Positions 32,881-52,590 of a stretch of 64,000 nt of DNA are shown here, piece after piece. The position numbers were made by a program, and so were the translations under genes. Below the pieces are notes generated by a model. The model was not told where the DNA came from. It saw only the letters and a program-made list of their open reading frames with translations, and did not search any database. The stretch is from the NCBI RefSeq assembly GCF_033063295.1, contig NZ_JAWJZH010000001.1, positions 1,426,001 to 1,490,000 of the forward strand, written 5' to 3'. Position 1 is the stretch's first letter; each line of letters opens with the position of its first letter. This stretch comes from Nitrosomonas sp. Is35. GTDB lineage: Bacteria > Pseudomonadota > Gammaproteobacteria > Burkholderiales > Nitrosomonadaceae.

Positions 32881-34284
32881 ATGGATGTATATACGAGCAT
32901 TCCCAAAGAATCAAAGCACTCGGCGTTAATCAAGGAATTCCGGATACTCTTTCTGAATCTTTATTGCGGTATTCAGTTACTGGCTTTTCGCCGAGGTGCA
33001 ACCGATCGGATAACCGTTTCTTACGATCAATTTATTCTGCTGCTGGGTTTTTATACGCTGACGGCACTGGCTGTTTCTTACGCAGCTACACCCAATCCTG
33101 TTTTCGATCTATCCGGACTCGGTTATTTGGGTGTTAAGTTACTGATTGCACTGGTGGTGGGATATGTTTTTGTGAAATTAACCGGAAACCAAAGCGATTT
33201 ACTCAGGATTCTGGTCATTACCTATTGCGTTTTGCCAGCGCTGTATTTGATTTCTTTTGCCCTTTTAGCTTATTTGCCAGTGACGGTTCTGGTAGCTGGT
33301 TATGTCGCTTTTATCGCGTGGGCCTTAGCGATTTGTTTTTATATCGCGCTGCAATTGCTGGAATGGAACAAACCTAAAGCGGCATTGATTGCCGCGCTGT
33401 GGCTGGGCGCTTCGTATCCGTTGGTCAATTTATCGTTCAGCTTTTGGTACGAAGGGTATGACGATGATAATGAGTTGGCCGCGTATTCCACCGGCGCGCT
33501 GCATGAAGTCAATCAGGAACATGTGTATTACAGCCAATACCGGCTTCTGAACAACGCCCTGGATCCGATAAAACCCGGTGTTACAGGCGTCAATGATCTT
33601 TTCTTTATAGGATTTGGTTCCGATTCCTCTCAGGATGTCTTCATGAAGGAAATTGGACATGTACAGCGTGTCATGGACGAACGCCTGGGTACATCGGGAC
33701 GATCTGTTGCACTGATAAATAACCTAAAAACGCTGGATACAACACCGTTGGCATCTTCGACAAACCTGAGAATTGCATTAAAGCATATTGGCAGCAAAAT
33801 GAATCCTGACGAAGACGTGGCGCTGCTCTACTTGACCAGCCACGGATCGATGGATCATGAACTTGCAGTGCAAATGTGGCCGCTTGAGCTGAATAATATC
33901 CGCCCGGAAGATATCAGAGCTTATTTGGATGATGCCGATATCCGCTGGCGCATTATTTTGATTTCGGCGTGTTACTCCGGCGGTTTTATCAAAGCGTTGC
34001 AGAACGAGTATTCGCTGATTTTTACCGCAGCCGCGCCGGATAAGGCTTCATTCGGCTGTTCAAATGAAAATGAATACACTTATTTTGGCGAAGCGCTGTT
34101 TAAAAATCTGGAAGATAAACCTTACCAGTTCGTTGAGCACTTCATTCAGGCGATGGAAAGAATCCGGCAACGTGAGCGCTACGAAAACCTTACGCCATCC
34201 GAACCGCAATTATTCATCGGTAATTTGATGAAAGAAAAATTGAAATTGCTGGAGCGGGATATTGTGAGTAGCGCCGCTCCTTAA
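32881..34284 (+). CDS. Membrane-anchored C13 (legumain-like) family peptidase
   Basis: The N-terminal half (to about 190) has four to five membrane segments resembling a Yip1-type domain; the C-terminal half is a caspase-fold peptidase domain. The catalytic pair is His321 in LYLTSHGSMDHE and Cys364 in ILISACYSGGFI, the arrangement of family C13 (clan CD, with legumain and GPI transamidase). A clan-CD peptidase on the cytoplasmic or periplasmic face of the inner membrane is implied; the substrate is unknown. GGAGAGAAGA precedes the ATG. It is convergent with ubiE, with only 14 bases between the stops. Confidence 0.85.
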   Translation: MDVYTSIPKESKHSALIKEFRILFLNLYCGIQLLAFRRGATDRITVSYDQFILLLGFYTLTALAVSYAATPNPVFDLSGLGYLGVKLLIALVVGYVFVKLTGNQSDLLRILVITYCVLPALYLISFALLAYLPVTVLVAGYVAFIAWALAICFYIALQLLEWNKPKAALIAALWLGASYPLVNLSFSFWYEGYDDDNELAAYSTGALHEVNQEHVYYSQYRLLNNALDPIKPGVTGVNDLFFIGFGSDSSQDVFMKEIGHVQRVMDERLGTSGRSVALINNLKTLDTTPLASSTNLRIALKHIGSKMNPDEDVALLYLTSHGSMDHELAVQMWPLELNNIRPEDIRAYLDDADIRWRIILISACYSGGFIKALQNEYSLIFTAAAPDKASFGCSNENEYTYFGEALFKNLEDKPYQFVEHFIQAMERIRQRERYENLTPSEPQLFIGNLMKEKLKLLERDIVSSAAP

Positions 34285-38049: not shown

Positions 38050-38231
38050 AGCGATGGCATTATGACAGCATGTTGGGTTGGATGAAATGTGAAAGCCGGA
38101 GTTAGGCGGTTTTTCTGGGATTTATGCCGCTTTCCAACTTACGAACTGATTGCCATCGCTGATCCTGGATGACGTAGGCTTTCCATTTGCTGTGAACAAC
38201 AATCAGATTCAACAAGGTGGCTAACGGCAGC

Positions 38232-38945
38232 TCAAACGTGCCACGAATTAGCGTCGGCTGGAATTATTTGCTCGATATCCACTGCACTTCCGATGGCGGC
38301 AAGAAACAGGAAGCTAACAAAGAAAGCGATAGCAAAAATCACCCGTAGCAGACCAATCTGCTCATGCGCAACAGTGAATCCATTATCTTTGTCCCAGCTG
38401 GTTATACCGTTCTTTGTCAATTTGTTATACGACATTATGAGAGTGATGAGACTGATAAGTGGAAATCCAATACCTAAACCGCACCACCAAACCTTAAAAC
38501 TTCTTGAGAAAGCAGTTGAATAATCCGGTGTCTCTCCTGACGGTGGTATAAGGCGGATCTTGAAAAGCCACTTGCCGGGCGTTGTACCAGTTGTTGAAAG
38601 GAATAACGATTCGATGAACACCCAAGCAAAAAATACGCTAAACCCAAACAATTGATCAAATTGATCACTATTCTGCTCGCTGAGCGCGTCTGGATAGAGG
38701 AAGCTGATGACTATGCCACTCACGATGGAGATCAAGTAGAGGTCGAACATACGCGCCCAGTAGCGAACCCACGGGCGAATTTGGGCAACAGAAGCAGTAG
38801 CCTGTATTGGCATGGGCAAAGTAGTCGACAAAACTACATTGGGTTCTGGCACAGTTTTCTGATCCGTGGCTTCCAGAGGTGCTCCGCAATGCCTGCAAAA
38901 CTTCGCATCATCTATTATTTCCTTGCCACATTGCGTACAAAACAT
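38232..38945 (-). CDS. Zinc-ribbon RDD-family membrane protein
   Basis: The N-terminus is a zinc ribbon with CxxC pairs (FCTQCGKEI and FCRHCGAP). Then comes an RDD domain with three membrane segments in the C-terminal two-thirds, starting near RYWARMFDLYLIS (the R and D D residues that name the family) and TTPGKWLFKIRL. RDD proteins are poorly characterised; some act in ion homeostasis. It has its own start at 38945 and no close same-strand partner. Confidence 0.85.
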   Translation of the reverse strand: MFCTQCGKEIIDDAKFCRHCGAPLEATDQKTVPEPNVVLSTTLPMPIQATASVAQIRPWVRYWARMFDLYLISIVSGIVISFLYPDALSEQNSDQFDQLFGFSVFFAWVFIESLFLSTTGTTPGKWLFKIRLIPPSGETPDYSTAFSRSFKVWWCGLGIGFPLISLITLIMSYNKLTKNGITSWDKDNGFTVAHEQIGLLRVIFAIAFFVSFLFLAAIGSAVDIEQIIPADANSWHV

Positions 38946-39324
38946 CGAATTTCCCTTTGCTCCAATGCTATGATTAAAATCGCACGTTCAAAATAACGCA
39001 ATATAGTACGTCATAAATGAAATCTAAAATATGGTAGTTTACGGCACTTTCTGATACTTCCAACTAATTGACCCATTTAGCTTTGTCATCATGCCAAATT
39101 TATTTCGTTCTTCAAGTTTGGGAACGTAACGCTATCGATGCATAGCCAATCTGATTTTCTCCAGCACGCGTAAAACCGTCTATTTTGGCGCTTCAATATT
39201 CAACTGCATAAAATCGCTGCTCACGGTTCCGGATTGCACGCCGGGATTCAGGCCGATACCGGCTGGGTGGATGAAGAAGCTCAATGGTTGGCGATTTTGT
39301 TGATGTTGGGGTTCGTTCTTCACC
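38946..39324. other. Intergenic region holding a patB 3'-end remnant
   Basis: The interval contains a decayed 3' end of a patB-like gene at 39132-39290, listed separately. The part 38946-39130 is AT-rich and holds the upstream region of the RDD gene; I found no attC-like site in it. Confidence 0.6.
39132..39290 (-). pseudogene. Decayed 3' end of a patB/malY-like aminotransferase gene
   Basis: On the minus strand about 52 codons read as a diverged copy of the C-terminus of the PatB protein encoded at 41022-42191. Shared features are FFIH, AG(I/V)GLNPGVQ, then DFMQLNIEAP against GFMRLNIGAP, and TVLRVLEKIRLAM against TVLVVLERIKRAM. The frame is kept but broken by an internal TAG at 39180-39182, and the 5' part of the gene is missing. 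It lies in the same orientation as the intact gene, on the other side of the integron-like island, so the two 3' ends form diverged direct repeats. Confidence 0.8.
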
Positions 39325-40200
39325 TCAACCTACGTGCTGCTCATTTAGGCGAACTCGATCCAGAATAAAACCTGCCACTTCTTCTGGGGTGAATCGTTGT
39401 AGATCAATGTAACCATCGTGTTCAAAAACGCCAGGAATTTCGGCATCATCAGACCTTACAAACATGATGGCGTGATCACTTTTATTGTTGATAATTCCAC
39501 GGATTGCTCGCCACTCTATACCGCACCATTTTTTCTTTTCGTATTCTTTGGACAAGAACACAACGATCAAGTCGGAATTTTTAAGATAAACAGATTGAAG
39601 CAAACTATCCAAATTTGGCCTCGCCAATTGTGCTGTAAAATCGTCGTCGTAAAAAATTGAGCCTGCGGGCAAGGAACTTTTAAGGCGGTTTACTATTGTG
39701 AGAACACAGTCGCGAACCTCGCCGGGGAAAGAAAACGCAACTTTGAAGCTCAGCTCTTCGAGCTTACCGGTGCGACCAACGGGATTGATAAATCTCTCAT
39801 CGATTAGACCCGCCGCGTGCAGTCGGCTGAATAAATCTTCATCTTTAACCGCCCAGTGCGTTCTATTCATTTCCCATTCGCCAATATCGAGAAGATTCAC
39901 GATTGGCGCAATATCTGAGAATGGAATTGGCGGGATGTCAGTTTCGAAATCATATTCAATCATAATCGAGCGACTTCGCTCCTTGAGAGACCGAATATAA
40001 CCGACTCGTACTGATTCTTTTTTTCCCTCATATGCAAACAGGCACGGAAACGACTTTAGAAGTTCAATGTGTTCGGACGTAAGTGTCTTGAGCAAGGTTT
40101 TTTCTTTGTCATTTGTATGCTCAAGGAATCTATCTCGTGTGTATTCATACGCGGGTAGTTCCCATGCGCCTTCATGTGCAGTTACAAGTAGGTTATACAT
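39325..40200 (-). CDS. TIR-domain protein with novel N-terminal domain, integron cassette gene
   Basis: Residues 152-285 form a TIR domain: FKVAFSFPG at the first strand, FYDDDF after the second, SDLIVVFLSKEY, and KKWCGIEWRAI with the candidate NADase glutamate Glu229. Bacterial TIR proteins of this kind usually consume NAD+ or make signalling nucleotides in antiphage defence. The N-terminal 150 residues form an unfamiliar domain with motifs NLLVTAHEGAWELP, RFLEHTN and NRTHWAVKDEDLF; it may sense an infection cue. The start ATG at 40200 has AGAGG upstream and follows the attC end GTTAGAT by about 21 bases, the standard distance for a cassette gene. Its own downstream attC is missing. Confidence 0.85.
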   Translation of the reverse strand: MYNLLVTAHEGAWELPAYEYTRDRFLEHTNDKEKTLLKTLTSEHIELLKSFPCLFAYEGKKESVRVGYIRSLKERSRSIMIEYDFETDIPPIPFSDIAPIVNLLDIGEWEMNRTHWAVKDEDLFSRLHAAGLIDERFINPVGRTGKLEELSFKVAFSFPGEVRDCVLTIVNRLKSSLPAGSIFYDDDFTAQLARPNLDSLLQSVYLKNSDLIVVFLSKEYEKKKWCGIEWRAIRGIINNKSDHAIMFVRSDDAEIPGVFEHDGYIDLQRFTPEEVAGFILDRVRLNEQHVG

Positions 40201-40221
40201 TTACACGATGCCTCTTTGGAA

Positions 40222-40290
40222 ATCTAACGTAAAGGTGAGGGGCGCGAGCGGCTACGCCGCGAAGCGTCCCTCTCGACCGATTGGTTGGGC
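40222..40290 (-). other. Integron attC recombination site
   Basis: Read on the minus strand the 69-bp site begins with GCCCAAC (RYYYAAC) at 40290-40284 and ends with GTTAGAT (GTTRRRY) at 40228-40222. Between them is a strong imperfect hairpin: a 9-bp arm (GAGGGGCGC with GCGTCCCTC, one G-U pair), a 2/3-base bulge, then GCGGC-TAC-GCCGC. It starts immediately after the stop of the lipoprotein gene. The first bases of that gene's cassette, TTGGGC, are the exact complement of GCCCAA in this site, the diagnostic property of an integron cassette. Confidence 0.88.
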
Positions 40291-40632
40291 TTATTTGGCA
40301 ACCCTGATCTCGTAGAAGATGTCGTAAATATCGCCAAACACCCCTTTCTTTCTTAGGACGGGAACACGCGAAATAACTTCATACCTCTTGGCGTCATAAT
40401 TGTTGTCTCGCAGCCATGTTTCTAGCCAGTCAATCCGTGTTCGTTCAGCTTCCTCCGACGTGAGCGGATACGCCGCATCGGCGAATGCCGTGAATTTGAA
40501 AAATTGAGCATTCGCATCGGTTCGTGTCGGCTCAAATTTTGTTACCGCCACACGGTCGAACGAAGCACAGCCCGCCATCATCCCAAGAAGCGCAGTGTAA
40601 ACAAAAACGAGGGTAAGCTTGCGTATGGTCAT
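40291..40632 (-). CDS. Small lipoprotein, integron cassette gene, 113 aa
   Basis: The protein has a type II signal peptide with lipobox MAGC (Cys22), and a 90-residue mature domain rich in charged and aromatic residues (RIDWLETWLRDNNYDAKRYEV). I recognise no family. It is the first cassette after the attI-like core site: GTTGGGC lies 17 bases before the ATG, and the stop codon abuts the attC site. The predicted cassette spans 40228-40654, about 427 bp, a typical size. Confidence 0.8.
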   Translation of the reverse strand: MTIRKLTLVFVYTALLGMMAGCASFDRVAVTKFEPTRTDANAQFFKFTAFADAAYPLTSEEAERTRIDWLETWLRDNNYDAKRYEVISRVPVLRKKGVFGDIYDIFYEIRVAK

Positions 40633-40648
40633 GTGCGTTTATCTCGTG

Positions 40649-40778
40649 GCCCAACTAAAATTAAACATATTCAAAATAATTTAACTTGGTTTCCTAAATG
40701 AGAATGCTAGAGCATTCTTCTGTTTTGTTCATTAGGATATGATGATTATGTATTTTATACGGGCCTAAAAAAACACGG
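40649..40778. other. attI-like region between truncated integrase and first cassette
   Basis: GTTGGGC on the minus strand at 40655-40649 is a GTTRRRY core site placed where the first cassette joins attI. The remainder up to the integrase start at 40779 has no attC-type hairpin, as expected for attI. An 18-bp perfect palindrome, AGAATGCT-AG-AGCATTCT, lies at 40701-40718. The divergent layout, integrase rightward and cassettes leftward, is that of a standard integron platform. Confidence 0.6.
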
Positions 40779-40997
40779 ATGAGTAAATCTCCAAAACTGC
40801 TGGATCAAGTTCGCGAATGTATACGTGTAAAGCACTATTCTATTCGTACTGAAAATACCTATGTGGATTGGATAAAACGTTTTATTTTGTTTCATCACAA
40901 ACGTCAACCCAAAGAGATGGGGAGTTCAGAAGTCGAAGCGTTTCTGACGTACCTTGACGTTGAACGTAATGTCCCCGCTTCTACTCAGGAGCAGGCC
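40779..40997 (+). pseudogene. intI: Truncated integron integrase
   Basis: The first 73 codons encode the N-terminal SAM-like core-binding domain of an integron tyrosine recombinase: LLDQVRECIRVKHYSIRTE, TYVDWIKRFILFH, GSSEVEAFLTYL and STQEQA all match IntI proteins. After QEQA homology stops abruptly; the following bases are the non-coding and coding end of the patB gene in the opposite orientation. The whole catalytic domain (two-thirds of a protein of about 320 residues) is missing, so this copy cannot be active. The frame stays open past the junction but only as antisense of patB. Confidence 0.85.
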
Positions 40998-41021
40998 ACA
41001 AGGCGGCCATATACGCCAGAA

Positions 41022-42191
41022 TTATCCGCGCATTGCCCGTTTTATCCTCTCCAGCACCACCAAAACCGTTTTCCTCGGCGCCCCAATATTCAACCGCATG
41101 AACCCGCTGCCTTCCTGCCCGAATTGCACGCCCGGATTCAGGCCGACACCGGCTTTGTGGATAAAGAAGTGTTTCAGTTGCGCGTCGGTCATGTGCCACT
41201 CGCGGCAATCGAACCAGAGCAGGTAGGTGCCTTCGGCTTGGATCACGCGCATGTCCGGCAAATGTTCCGCGACGAAGTGTTCGACGCTGGTACGGGTGTC
41301 TTGCAGGTAATTCTGTAATGCGGTGAGCCAGGCTTCACCGTCGCGGTAGGCGGCTTCGAAGGCGGCGACGCTGAACGGGTTGGAGGCGCTGACGTGGAAT
41401 TGGGTGAAGACTTGCGCGACAGCATGACGCACGGTTTTATCGGGGATGATCAGCGCGGATAGATTCAAGCCGGGGATATTGAAGGTTTTGCTTGGCGCGA
41501 CGGCGGTGATCAGGTTGCTGTTATTGTTGACAATGGCAGCCAACACGTGGTGGCGGTGGCCGGGGTAGATCAAGTCGTGGTGGATTTCATCGGAAAACAC
41601 GATCAGGTTGTGGCGGGTGGCGATTTGTTGCAGTTGCTGCAATTCTTCCGGCGACCACACGCGTCCGACCGGGTTGTGTGGCGAACACAGCAGCAGCAGT
41701 TTGGCTTGCCGGGCGCACTGTTCCAAATGGTCGAAGTCGATGGTGTAACGGCCATGGTCGTGGCGCAGCGGGTTTTGGATCAGCTTGCGGCCGGTTTGCG
41801 TGACGGCGGAGAAGAACGGGAAATACACCGGCGGTTGGACGATGACGGCTTCGCCGGGTTGGGTGAACGCCATCACAGCGGCGTTGATCGACGGCACCAC
41901 GCCGGGGCACATAACGATCCAGTCGCGCTGTACCGCCCAGCCGTGCCGCCGTTGCAGCCAGCCGATCAGCGCGTCATACAGGTTATCGGGAAATACGGTG
42001 TAACCGTAGATCGGGTGTTGTGCGCGCTCAGTCAGCGCTCGTGTAACCGCGGGCGGGGCGGCGAAATCCATGTCCGCCACCCACGCCGGGATGACATCGG
42101 CTTTGCCGAACATGGTTTGCCGTCCATCGTATTTGACACTGTGAGTTCCTTCGCGATTGATTTCCCTGTCGAAATCGAACGCTTCGCTCAA
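41022..42191 (-). CDS. ovoB: MalY/PatB-family PLP C-S lyase, likely ovothiol lyase OvoB
   Basis: This is a 389-residue fold-type I aminotransferase-family lyase. The PLP lysine is in AVAPSKTFNIPGLN, and the MalY/PatB-type N-terminus (HSVKYDGRQTMFGKADVIPAWVADMDF in part) is present. Family members cleave C-S bonds, for example cystathionine. Its ATG overlaps the ovoA stop by four bases, so it is translationally coupled to OvoA; in known ovothiol pathways a PLP lyase of this class cleaves 5-histidylcysteine sulfoxide to 5-thiohistidine. The role as OvoB is therefore context-based inference; cystathionine beta-lyase is the alternative. Confidence 0.8.
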   Translation of the reverse strand: MSEAFDFDREINREGTHSVKYDGRQTMFGKADVIPAWVADMDFAAPPAVTRALTERAQHPIYGYTVFPDNLYDALIGWLQRRHGWAVQRDWIVMCPGVVPSINAAVMAFTQPGEAVIVQPPVYFPFFSAVTQTGRKLIQNPLRHDHGRYTIDFDHLEQCARQAKLLLLCSPHNPVGRVWSPEELQQLQQIATRHNLIVFSDEIHHDLIYPGHRHHVLAAIVNNNSNLITAVAPSKTFNIPGLNLSALIIPDKTVRHAVAQVFTQFHVSASNPFSVAAFEAAYRDGEAWLTALQNYLQDTRTSVEHFVAEHLPDMRVIQAEGTYLLWFDCREWHMTDAQLKHFFIHKAGVGLNPGVQFGQEGSGFMRLNIGAPRKTVLVVLERIKRAMRG

Positions 42192-44302
42192 GCGATACGC
42201 TCCCAGATGGTGACTTCCGCCAGCGTGTGCTGGAATTTGCGTTTGGTTTCGCGGATCACGAACGGCACGGCTTGCGGCCCTTGGATCAGACGGAAGTGCG
42301 GGCCGAGCATTTCTTTCAGGCCGTCGAGCGTGGTGAAGTTTTCACCGTCGCGCTTGAAGCCGCCGACCCACGCTTCTTTCTTGGTGTGTTCGGTGAGCCA
42401 GGTATACGGCGACGTGATCATCAGCAAACCGCCCATATTGATGCGCGTGTGAATGCTATTGAGCAGCTTGGCCGGATCGTATAACCGGTCGATCAGGTTG
42501 GCAGCGAGGATCAGGTCGTAGCCGGTGAAAATGGATTTTAAATTACAGGCATCGCCCTGGAAAAATTCGACCTTATGTTTGACGTGATCCAGGCCCAGGC
42601 CGGTTAATGTGCGTTCCTTGTACGACACCAGCTCGCCTTCGTCGGTCAGTGTGTAGCGCAAAACACCTTGCTGTGCGAGTTGCACACCCTGGCCGATGAA
42701 ACGCGCGGAGAAATCGATACCGGTGACATGATCGAACACTGTGGCCAGCTCGAAGGTCGAGCGGCCGGAAGCACAGCCTAAATCCAGCGCGCTGCGTTTA
42801 GGCCGGTTACCCGTCGCGGCGATGGCGATATCCGCGAGTGCCTTGGAGAAATTGGGCACGTCAAAATACATATCGCCGTAATGAAACTCGGCGTATTCCG
42901 ACAGCAATTTGTCAGTTTCGTAGTTGGAACCCGGCAGTGTGGCTGGTGCGTCCGACACGACATAGCGGAAACCCGCGTGCTGGAAGAAATGGCGACGGAA
43001 GGCGTAGCGCGAGCTGCGGATCGATTCGTTGCCACAAGCAATCCACGAACCGCCTTTAATCAGATTATGCTGATTATCGAACGTCGGCGTGGTGAAATCG
43101 TCGTACAACGGATGCACGTCGAATCCCTCGAACGGGTAGGTCGGCGTTTCGGTCCATTGCCAGACGTTACCGGTGATATCGAAAAACTCGCCTTGCGGGA
43201 ATTCGGTGACCGGACAGCTCGACGCATAGTAATCCAGATGCAGATTGCCGCTGGCTTTTGCGTCCGGCGGTACTTCAGATAATTGCGCGGTATCGTACAG
43301 CCGGTACCATTCGTCCTCGGTCGGCAGCCGTACCGGTTGCTTGGTCGTTTCGGCTTTCCAGTTACAGAACGCTTTGGCTTCGTGATAATTGACTTCAACC
43401 GGCCAATCCCACGGCATCGGCACTTCCTCGGTCATCAGGCGCAAACACCAGTCATTGCCTTTCTTGATCCAAAAAGTGGGGTATTCGGCTTGGGTGAATT
43501 TTTGCCAGGCACGTCCTTCTTCCGGCCAGTAACTACCGGTGCGGTAGCCGCCGGCTTCGACAAACGCCAGAAATTCCTGATTACTGACCAAGTATTTGCT
43601 GGCTTGGAAAGCGGCAATATCGGCGCTGTGCATGCCATATTCGTTATCCCAGCCGTAATGCTGATGATTGGTTCTGGTTTTATGCAGCGTGACCGTTCCG
43701 GCGGCGACGTTGATTAAAGCATTCTGCGGCGCGGCGCCGGATGTGCGGCACGGCTGCCAATCCGGGTGCGGTTGCACGAAATGCAGCGCGTGCTGGCGGA
43801 TCAGAACCGACGATGTTTCCAGGTGAATGCGTTCATGCTCGATCCCCATCACAATCGGCCACCACGAGCTTTCCCAGGTGATCGGCAAGGCCAGCGGCAT
43901 CGTTGCGATCAGCTTGTCGACCATGGCGCGCATGGTTTTGCGGTACGCGCGCACTTCGCCGACCGTCGGCCAATCGTAGTGCGTGCTATCGAGATCGTCC
44001 CAGCTCATTTCGTCGACACCGACGGCGAAGATCGATTCCAGCCGGGGATTGATGCGTTCGGGGATCAGCCCGGCGAGAATCAATTTATTGACGAAAAATG
44101 TGGCGGTATGGCCGAGATAAAAAATCAGCGGGTGGCGCAGTGAGATCGGTTTTTTGTAATAGGCCTCGTCAGTGCGCAGCGTTTCAAAGAGTTGTTCGTA
44201 ACGATCCAGCGTGTTGTGAAAATAAGCGCGGATTTCTTCACGTTTCAGGTTGATGTCATCGCCGTCCAGTAGCGGTGTTCTTTGGAATAAGGTTTGTAGC
44301 AT
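42188..44302 (-). CDS. ovoA: 5-histidylcysteine sulfoxide synthase / thiohistidine methyltransferase OvoA
   Basis: OvoA makes ovothiol A, an antioxidant thiohistidine. The 704-residue protein has the three expected parts: a DinB-like domain with the iron-binding HX3HXE motif at 156-162 (EHERIHLET), plus an additional histidine at 65; a formylglycine-generating-enzyme-like sulfoxide synthase domain (about 205-460, with MPWDWPVEVNYHEAKAF and LIKGGSWIACGNES); and a C-terminal SAM methyltransferase (about 480-700, ALDLGCASGRSTFELA). The combination and length are diagnostic. The partner lyase gene follows directly. No strong ribosome-binding site precedes the ATG. Confidence 0.94.
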   Translation of the reverse strand: MLQTLFQRTPLLDGDDINLKREEIRAYFHNTLDRYEQLFETLRTDEAYYKKPISLRHPLIFYLGHTATFFVNKLILAGLIPERINPRLESIFAVGVDEMSWDDLDSTHYDWPTVGEVRAYRKTMRAMVDKLIATMPLALPITWESSWWPIVMGIEHERIHLETSSVLIRQHALHFVQPHPDWQPCRTSGAAPQNALINVAAGTVTLHKTRTNHQHYGWDNEYGMHSADIAAFQASKYLVSNQEFLAFVEAGGYRTGSYWPEEGRAWQKFTQAEYPTFWIKKGNDWCLRLMTEEVPMPWDWPVEVNYHEAKAFCNWKAETTKQPVRLPTEDEWYRLYDTAQLSEVPPDAKASGNLHLDYYASSCPVTEFPQGEFFDITGNVWQWTETPTYPFEGFDVHPLYDDFTTPTFDNQHNLIKGGSWIACGNESIRSSRYAFRRHFFQHAGFRYVVSDAPATLPGSNYETDKLLSEYAEFHYGDMYFDVPNFSKALADIAIAATGNRPKRSALDLGCASGRSTFELATVFDHVTGIDFSARFIGQGVQLAQQGVLRYTLTDEGELVSYKERTLTGLGLDHVKHKVEFFQGDACNLKSIFTGYDLILAANLIDRLYDPAKLLNSIHTRINMGGLLMITSPYTWLTEHTKKEAWVGGFKRDGENFTTLDGLKEMLGPHFRLIQGPQAVPFVIRETKRKFQHTLAEVTIWERIA

Positions 44303-52343: not shown

Positions 52344-52410
52344 CACGGGAGGCAACCCGGCCATCTCACATTGGTAAGATTCAAATGAGATCCGCTGGCT
52401 TTCCGTGCCT
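52344..52410 (-). promoter_or_regulatory. Structured leader element resembling a c-di-GMP-I (GEMM) riboswitch
   Basis: Read on the minus strand, AGGCACGGAAAGCC (52410-52397) and GGCCGGGTTGCCT (52362-52350) flank a hairpin with a 7-bp stem ATCTCAT/GTGAGAT. AGGCA pairs with TGCCT to close the element. The GGAAAGCC...GCCGGGTTGCC layout matches the second half of the GEMM consensus (GCAAAGCC...GGGTTGCC). The GNRA-tetraloop hairpin of classical GEMM is not obvious, so this may be a variant. It is followed by a CTCCC...GGGAG hairpin that could be the expression platform, and lies about 165 bases before the PEP-CTERM start. Confidence 0.4.
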
Positions 52411-52590
52411 GTCTAGCGGCAAGCGTGGCTTTGTCTGGTATCTGTCTCAATAAATTACGTTTTTATAGTTTATGGGAAAATTCTGATAAAACAATGCGAC
52501 AAATTGTCGCTGCGGCAAATTGCCACACCACCAATAGTGGTGCGGGATTGCGCCAAATGCTATCGAGAAATTGCCAGACAAATTAACCGC

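Follow-up and report, generated by a model that had tools for sequence, protein, structure and literature searches.

The window analysed here is a 64,000-nucleotide stretch of the genome of Nitrosomonas sp. Is35. Its region 39132..41022 is almost certainly the remnant of a chromosomal integron, not a working one, and its anatomy agrees with the preliminary description of this DNA. A fragment of the integrase gene intI (40779..40997) is located on the plus strand. The other integron parts are on the minus strand and lead away from intI: the core of the attI region, a lipoprotein-like gene, an attC recombination site, a second core (GTTAGAT) and a gene encoding a TIR-domain protein. The attI region adjoins intI and the cassettes diverge from it, as expected of an integron.

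The intI fragment retains codons 1–73 of an integron integrase and the remainder is missing, so the window holds no complete integrase. The translation matches TIGR02249 over residues 7–73 (E 5.3e-22), which bears out the truncated integrase described earlier. Residues 1–73 are at most 78% identical to the integrases of relatives (tblastn), the best of which belongs to genome G059 and is complete. The similarity ends at residue 73 (approximately position 40997), about 25 bp ahead of the stop codon of the neighbouring gene ovoB. No integron integrase above the family cut-off is present in the 3.3-Mb genome of the strain; six weaker matches include the piece in the window. An integrase match with an E-value of 1e-40 or better is found in 27 of 120 family genomes, and the genome of Is35 is not among these.

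The attI region (40640..40760, minus strand) contains the core GTTGGGC at 40649–40655, 124 bp from the start of intI. A TAATTTTAGTT block at exactly this distance is also present in two integrons of the genus, L107 (G059) and L041 (G109), and the proposed attI-type core is thereby upheld. The cores of these two are GTTAGAG and GTTAGCC, and both fail a strict fit to GTTRRRY. An inverted repeat (GAGAATGC..GCATTCTC, 40700–40719) lies between intI and attI and may be an operator or a hairpin. A promoter scan of the locus gave nothing above chance, and the terminator-like hits were near chance level.

Cassette 1 extends from core to core (40228..40654, minus strand). Its start core at 40649–40655 is complementary in seven of seven positions to the R'' sequence GCCCAAC, in agreement with the lipoprotein cassette proposed before. 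The open reading frame (40291..40632, minus strand) encodes 113 amino acids and was judged to be a small lipoprotein by eye. It has no match in Pfam, NCBIfam or PADLOC, in the plasmids searched or in 124 other family genomes (one of 125 with its own). The attC site (40222..40290, minus strand) was recognized with covariance model R1, built from 15 attC sites of eight loci in related genomes with the window excluded. Its score of 32.7 bits (E 1.3e-5; 22 sources, 301 kb) ranks first among the nine matches listed at E 5 or better; the hit on which the preliminary description had let its case depend was thus obtained. With the filters switched off, the E-value within 39000–41100 is 9.2e-8. The opposite strand scores only 4.4, hence the orientation of the site is that of the cassette genes. 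An R1 search of the strain's own genome was empty and is uninformative, as it also missed the known attC of the window (150 of 978 candidates scored).

Cassette 2 (39337..40227, minus strand) starts with the core GTTAGAT and is shortened: it runs to codon 288 of the TIR gene, and the stop codon and attC are lost. The TIR gene (39325..40200, minus strand) retains the natural end RLNEQ, followed by the residues HVG and a new stop from the adjoining DNA. The same natural end is found in P0001, a protein 99% identical to that of the window, and in Nitrincola tibetensis (L007). There, the gene is 88% identical, and a stop codon and the R'' sequence ATCTAAC, complementary to the start core GTTAGAT, are located directly past codon 288. 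The cassette is complete in Nitrincola, which supports the TIR gene as the second cassette of the window, and the position of its stop and attC indicates that the window cassette lost both at this point. R1 with filters off gave no complementary attC 3' of the window gene. This loss is read from the sequence comparison, since R1 also fails to list the Nitrincola attC of the TIR gene (up to E 5), which was identified by its cores. The DNA fold of two Nitrincola attC sites is little better than that of shuffled sequences (z −0.7), and the Nitrincola genome likewise has no integrase match above the cut-off. The next cassette 3' of the TIR cassette in Nitrincola (L007:3481–4606) carries genes for a TIR protein of the ThsB type and for a small protein that looks membrane-type by eye.

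As judged from this comparison and from the lack of any genomic integrase match above the family cut-off, the TIR gene is a stranded cassette with both mobility ends lost. The phrase "captured and then immobilised" is thus appropriate to an intI of 73 codons, a genome lacking an integrase over the cut-off and a TIR gene deprived of its stop and attC. A short palindrome-like repeat (39286..39336) marks the junction and recurs in several related loci (blastn). Its DNA fold is no better than that of shuffles. The repeat was rejected as an abundant element; a 15-base word with one mismatch allowed has only three places in the genome, including the window.

Some observations weigh against an integron remnant with these boundaries. 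The left edge (39132) falls at a relic of an ovoB 3' end, outside the integron sequence. A motif-plus-pairing filter for attC is on its own not significant (two hits in the window, representing one site on both strands, against 0–6 in 20 shuffles) and was dropped as evidence. The DNA fold of the cassette strand only weakly beats shuffled sequences (z −1.5; 16 of 200 equally good).

The TIR protein has 291 residues: an N-terminal domain (N-domain, approximately 1–140), the TIR domain (approximately 151–288) and the three residues HVG from neighbouring DNA. The TIR domain is recognized by profile (PF13676, E 8e-9, above the gathering score) and by fold. There are 1341 relatives at E 1e-3. Glu229 is conserved in all 42 aligned rows, and from its place in the motif WCxxEW we take it to be the catalytic glutamate of TIR NADases. 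The frame of 288 codons is intact and the invariant residues are kept. With good probability the predicted protein is an NADase, and only slightly less firmly it can be regarded as having a defence role, as a probable one-gene anti-phage effector. It matches no PADLOC system model up to E 0.1. Relatives are absent from viral contigs in a pattern search and from phage records at E 1e-5. No full-length match was found in 60 other genomes of the genus. Since the searched relatives also lack the lipoprotein gene, the cassette content of the window is not the common state; a cassette-free version of this gene order in all relatives, the other outcome that would have spoken against the preliminary description, was not seen. 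Three related loci of the genus (L011, L012 and L017) contain a related TIR domain (47–49%) at the head of long proteins that also have a nucleotide-binding motif and look NLR-like by eye; in L011 a stop interrupts the gene.

The N-domain precedes four or more kinds of effector (five when the SEFIR type is counted separately). All are either TIR-like or have been suggested to act on NAD, and they are likely suicide enzymes. Its partners are TIR_2, CAP12-type TIR, SEFIR/TIR, a further TIR-effector-like end and FRG. Among 65 N-domain proteins scanned with Pfam, FRG was found in 32, TIR_2 in 30 and TIR in 14; otherwise there were stray weak matches (at most four members, best E 0.012). The effector halves of relatives match the PADLOC models bSEFIR, PDC-S15 and PDC-S35. 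As the matched stretches begin no earlier than residue 145 (L010), 148 (L168) or 165 (L170), the N-domain is outside these models.

A fold search with the predicted model of the N-domain returned almost exclusively YTH-, ASCH- and EVE-type domains. The match is moderate and spans the whole domain. A YTH/EVE-like fold is reasonably likely for the modelled domain. Its sequence gave an hhalign probability of 0.6% against the EVE profile, no EVE match in the Pfam scans and no match in the PDB up to E 10. A viral fold library gave nothing at E 0.001 or better, with one phage ASCH protein among the first rows. Because the model is YTH/EVE/ASCH-like and the domain stands ahead of several effector kinds, we propose it to be a swappable sensor whose ligand may be foreign or modified nucleic acid. 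A sensor would be expected to show this pattern, a single unnamed domain joined to four or more types of effector, and the pattern gives a testable prediction of the trigger. That modified bases in particular are sensed is a tentative suggestion, on the unlikely side; if so, modification-dependent restriction would be linked to NAD-depleting immunity.

Members of this family are integron cargo elsewhere. R1 found attC matches in three of 17 loci with TIR or N-domain proteins (L124, L007 and L168) and none in 14 (up to E 2); these 14 count for little, given that R1 also passes over the Nitrincola attC of the TIR gene. By reading of the cores, complete cassettes are present in the Vibrio tubiashii plasmid p251 and in G667 (both N-domain/CAP12-TIR) and in Nitrincola (N-domain/TIR_2). 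Including the window, the family is integron cargo at four of 18 places and with two effector kinds. In p251 (L124:3873–5020 onward) the N-domain/CAP12-TIR gene lies between two strong attC sites with weak attC matches nearby, and its neighbours are HNH, restriction endonuclease, kinase and phosphatase genes.

The remnant is adjoined by ovoB (41022..42191, minus strand), which encodes a PatB-family C-S lyase (TIGR04350, 3.8e-166) and is named for its position beside ovoA (42188..44302, minus strand; TIGR04344, 1.2e-209; TIGR04345, 5.6e-102). On the other side is the relic of an older ovoB 3' end (39138..39279, minus strand). It is 75% identical to the 3' end of the intact gene and 86% identical to the ovoB end and downstream DNA of L084; the same junction is found in L078–L080. 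Further on are a second, decayed attI-like site, attI-B (38971..39028, minus strand; nhmmer E 6.8e-7, with profile seeds that include the attI region of the intact integron L098), and an RDD-family gene (38232..38945, minus strand; PF06271). This gene may be a fossil cassette, because the attC-like site at its 3' end is strong in L079 (4034–4093, minus strand; 25.5 bits) and decayed in the window (38219–38276, minus strand; 11 bits, E 4). L078 also shows this site (13.4 bits).

Within the genus, ovoB has 79 matches in 78 of 85 genomes. The region downstream was inspected in 61 loci (the window, 20 and 40 others); the 18 not retrieved were mostly the lowest-scoring, and several of those retrieved are truncated where the contig ends. 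The RDD gene directly follows ovoB in G041 (L084). G031, G108, G044 and the window have an ovoB-end relic ahead of the RDD gene and an intact ovoB further on, and the cargo in between is different in each. This arrangement was counted in three of the 20 loci covered by that search. Cargo is also found without the relic: L083 has a GmrSD/HNH protein that matches NsnA and PD-T4-2_A, and L081 has a kinase that matches mad6 and PD-T4-6. R1 with filters off gave no attC after these two genes or after the CAP12-like gene of L078 (chance matches up to 8 bits), and these cargos are unsupported as cassettes. In L080 and L082, R1 gives an attC match within the cargo (21.1 bits, E 0.011).

Eleven of the 61 ovoB loci and two of the 29 integron loci searched share an attI-like site that includes a micro-ORF of 20 residues; five of the 11 and both integron loci were profile seeds. 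In the two integron loci the site is at an intact intI (L098, 6702–6585) and at a broken intI (L044). The micro-ORF reads approximately MxxxVxDFIxDVIxCVISxV and is found after ovoB without intI as well as at intI elsewhere (L078 5132–5249, L080, L082, L083, L090, L098 and L044). It recalls the small ORF of attI1. The downstream side of ovoB thus appears to be a hotspot for cargo, which either originated as an integron attachment site or captured one, the chronology being one we infer. The standard platform of the preliminary description is accordingly right for the divergence of intI and cassettes; the locus as a whole is more than a simple platform, being a hotspot for cargo in which the ovoB end is duplicated. 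Elsewhere in the window are a c-di-GMP-I riboswitch (52348–52439, minus strand; 38.5 bits) and a 467-residue protein (32881–34284, plus strand), which by eye shows membrane segments and a C-terminal part resembling a caspase and which adjoins a gene that looks ubiE-like.

The favoured explanation of the whole, which is more likely than not, is that a piece of an integron in the ovoB hotspot carries a stranded TIR cassette encoding a one-gene anti-phage effector triggered through its N-domain. The TIR gene would have arrived as an ordinary cassette from a wide mobile family. Deletions at both ends, the loss of which is evident, would then have removed integrase and attC, and only vertical inheritance or homologous exchange could now move the gene. 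The N-domain would hold the protein off until its trigger is met, and the C-terminal TIR domain, judged by its fold and the invariant Glu229, would then break down NAD+. A wider proposal is distinctly speculative and rather unlikely: one-gene immune proteins would form a class sharing an interchangeable YTH/EVE-like domain, which reads foreign or modified nucleic acid and triggers different NAD-linked effectors, and integrons would spread these proteins. If true, modified phage DNA or RNA would be met by NAD loss rather than cleavage.

The strongest competitor, a serious one of lesser probability, retains the same kind of defence protein and lets the N-domain sense a phage protein or merely join TIR domains, with no nucleobase read. 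The moderate fold match and the lack of a sequence link to EVE favour this, as do the many ligands served by PUA-like folds; the near uniformity of the fold rows speaks for the reader instead. The TIR gene could also be a passenger, silent or harmless debris in a recombination hotspot. Cassettes usually need the integron promoter, the adjacent intI is truncated, no promoter rises above chance and three sister genomes hold other cargos at this place. However, the intact frame with its invariant residues and the 99% identical P0001 with natural end in the database make this rather improbable. A secreted effector against eukaryotic hosts, the reading given to TIR cassettes from plant microbiomes (PMC11089894), is very improbable, given that the N-domain is common to FRG, CAP12-type and SEFIR proteins with PADLOC-matched effector halves and that a relative on a plasmid belongs to a cassette array with restriction endonuclease and kinase genes close by. 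Single cassettes at a non-integron, attG-like site beside an unrelated intI piece, which the varying cargos of sister genomes would suit, are largely refuted by the sequence and exact spacing that intI and attI share with two integrons of the genus.

With respect to known systems, the stranded cassette is an element of known type. Integrons reportedly store cassettes for phage defence (as Darracq 2025, Getz 2025 and Kieffer 2025 are said to show). The window resembles these in carrying a defence-type gene as a cassette and differs in a TIR protein that matches no PADLOC model and carries a module common to other effectors. With integrons now regarded as such stores, the locus shows a way for a cassette to leave the store, with both ends lost and the gene kept at a hotspot. 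For Xanthomonas, PMC12444791 describes sedentary chromosomal integrons downstream of ilvD with decayed intI and kept arrays. The fixed housekeeping gene, the often inactivated integrase and the kept cassettes are alike; the window differs in having only two cassettes, the second without attC, and in an ovoB locus with a duplicated end and exchanged cargo. Because such decayed integrases with kept cassettes are known, the dead integrase is not distinctive, and the "distinct case" of the preliminary description survives through the N-domain. TIR proteins as integron cassettes were likewise reported for plant microbiomes, with an interpretation as host effectors (PMC11089894). The main text of an EVE survey (PMC7641849) does not contain the words TIR and Frg. 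According to a proposal in PMC9503650, FRG may be an NADase belonging to the ART superfamily. Open-licence literature, represented mostly by titles and the starts of abstracts, yielded no report of an EVE/PUA-like domain fused to a TIR or NAD effector. Compared to AbTir and other bacterial TIR domains, the window protein has an N-domain without a Pfam family, and its activity is a predicted one. To bSEFIR, PDC-S15 and PDC-S35 it is related through the effector halves of proteins with the same N-domain. The predicted fold moderately resembles EVE, YTH and ASCH (PUA-like) domains, e.g. VcaM4I and YTHDC2, across the whole N-domain, whereas sequence similarity is lacking and the partners are TIR-like and FRG effectors. 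What sets the locus apart is this modular N-domain.

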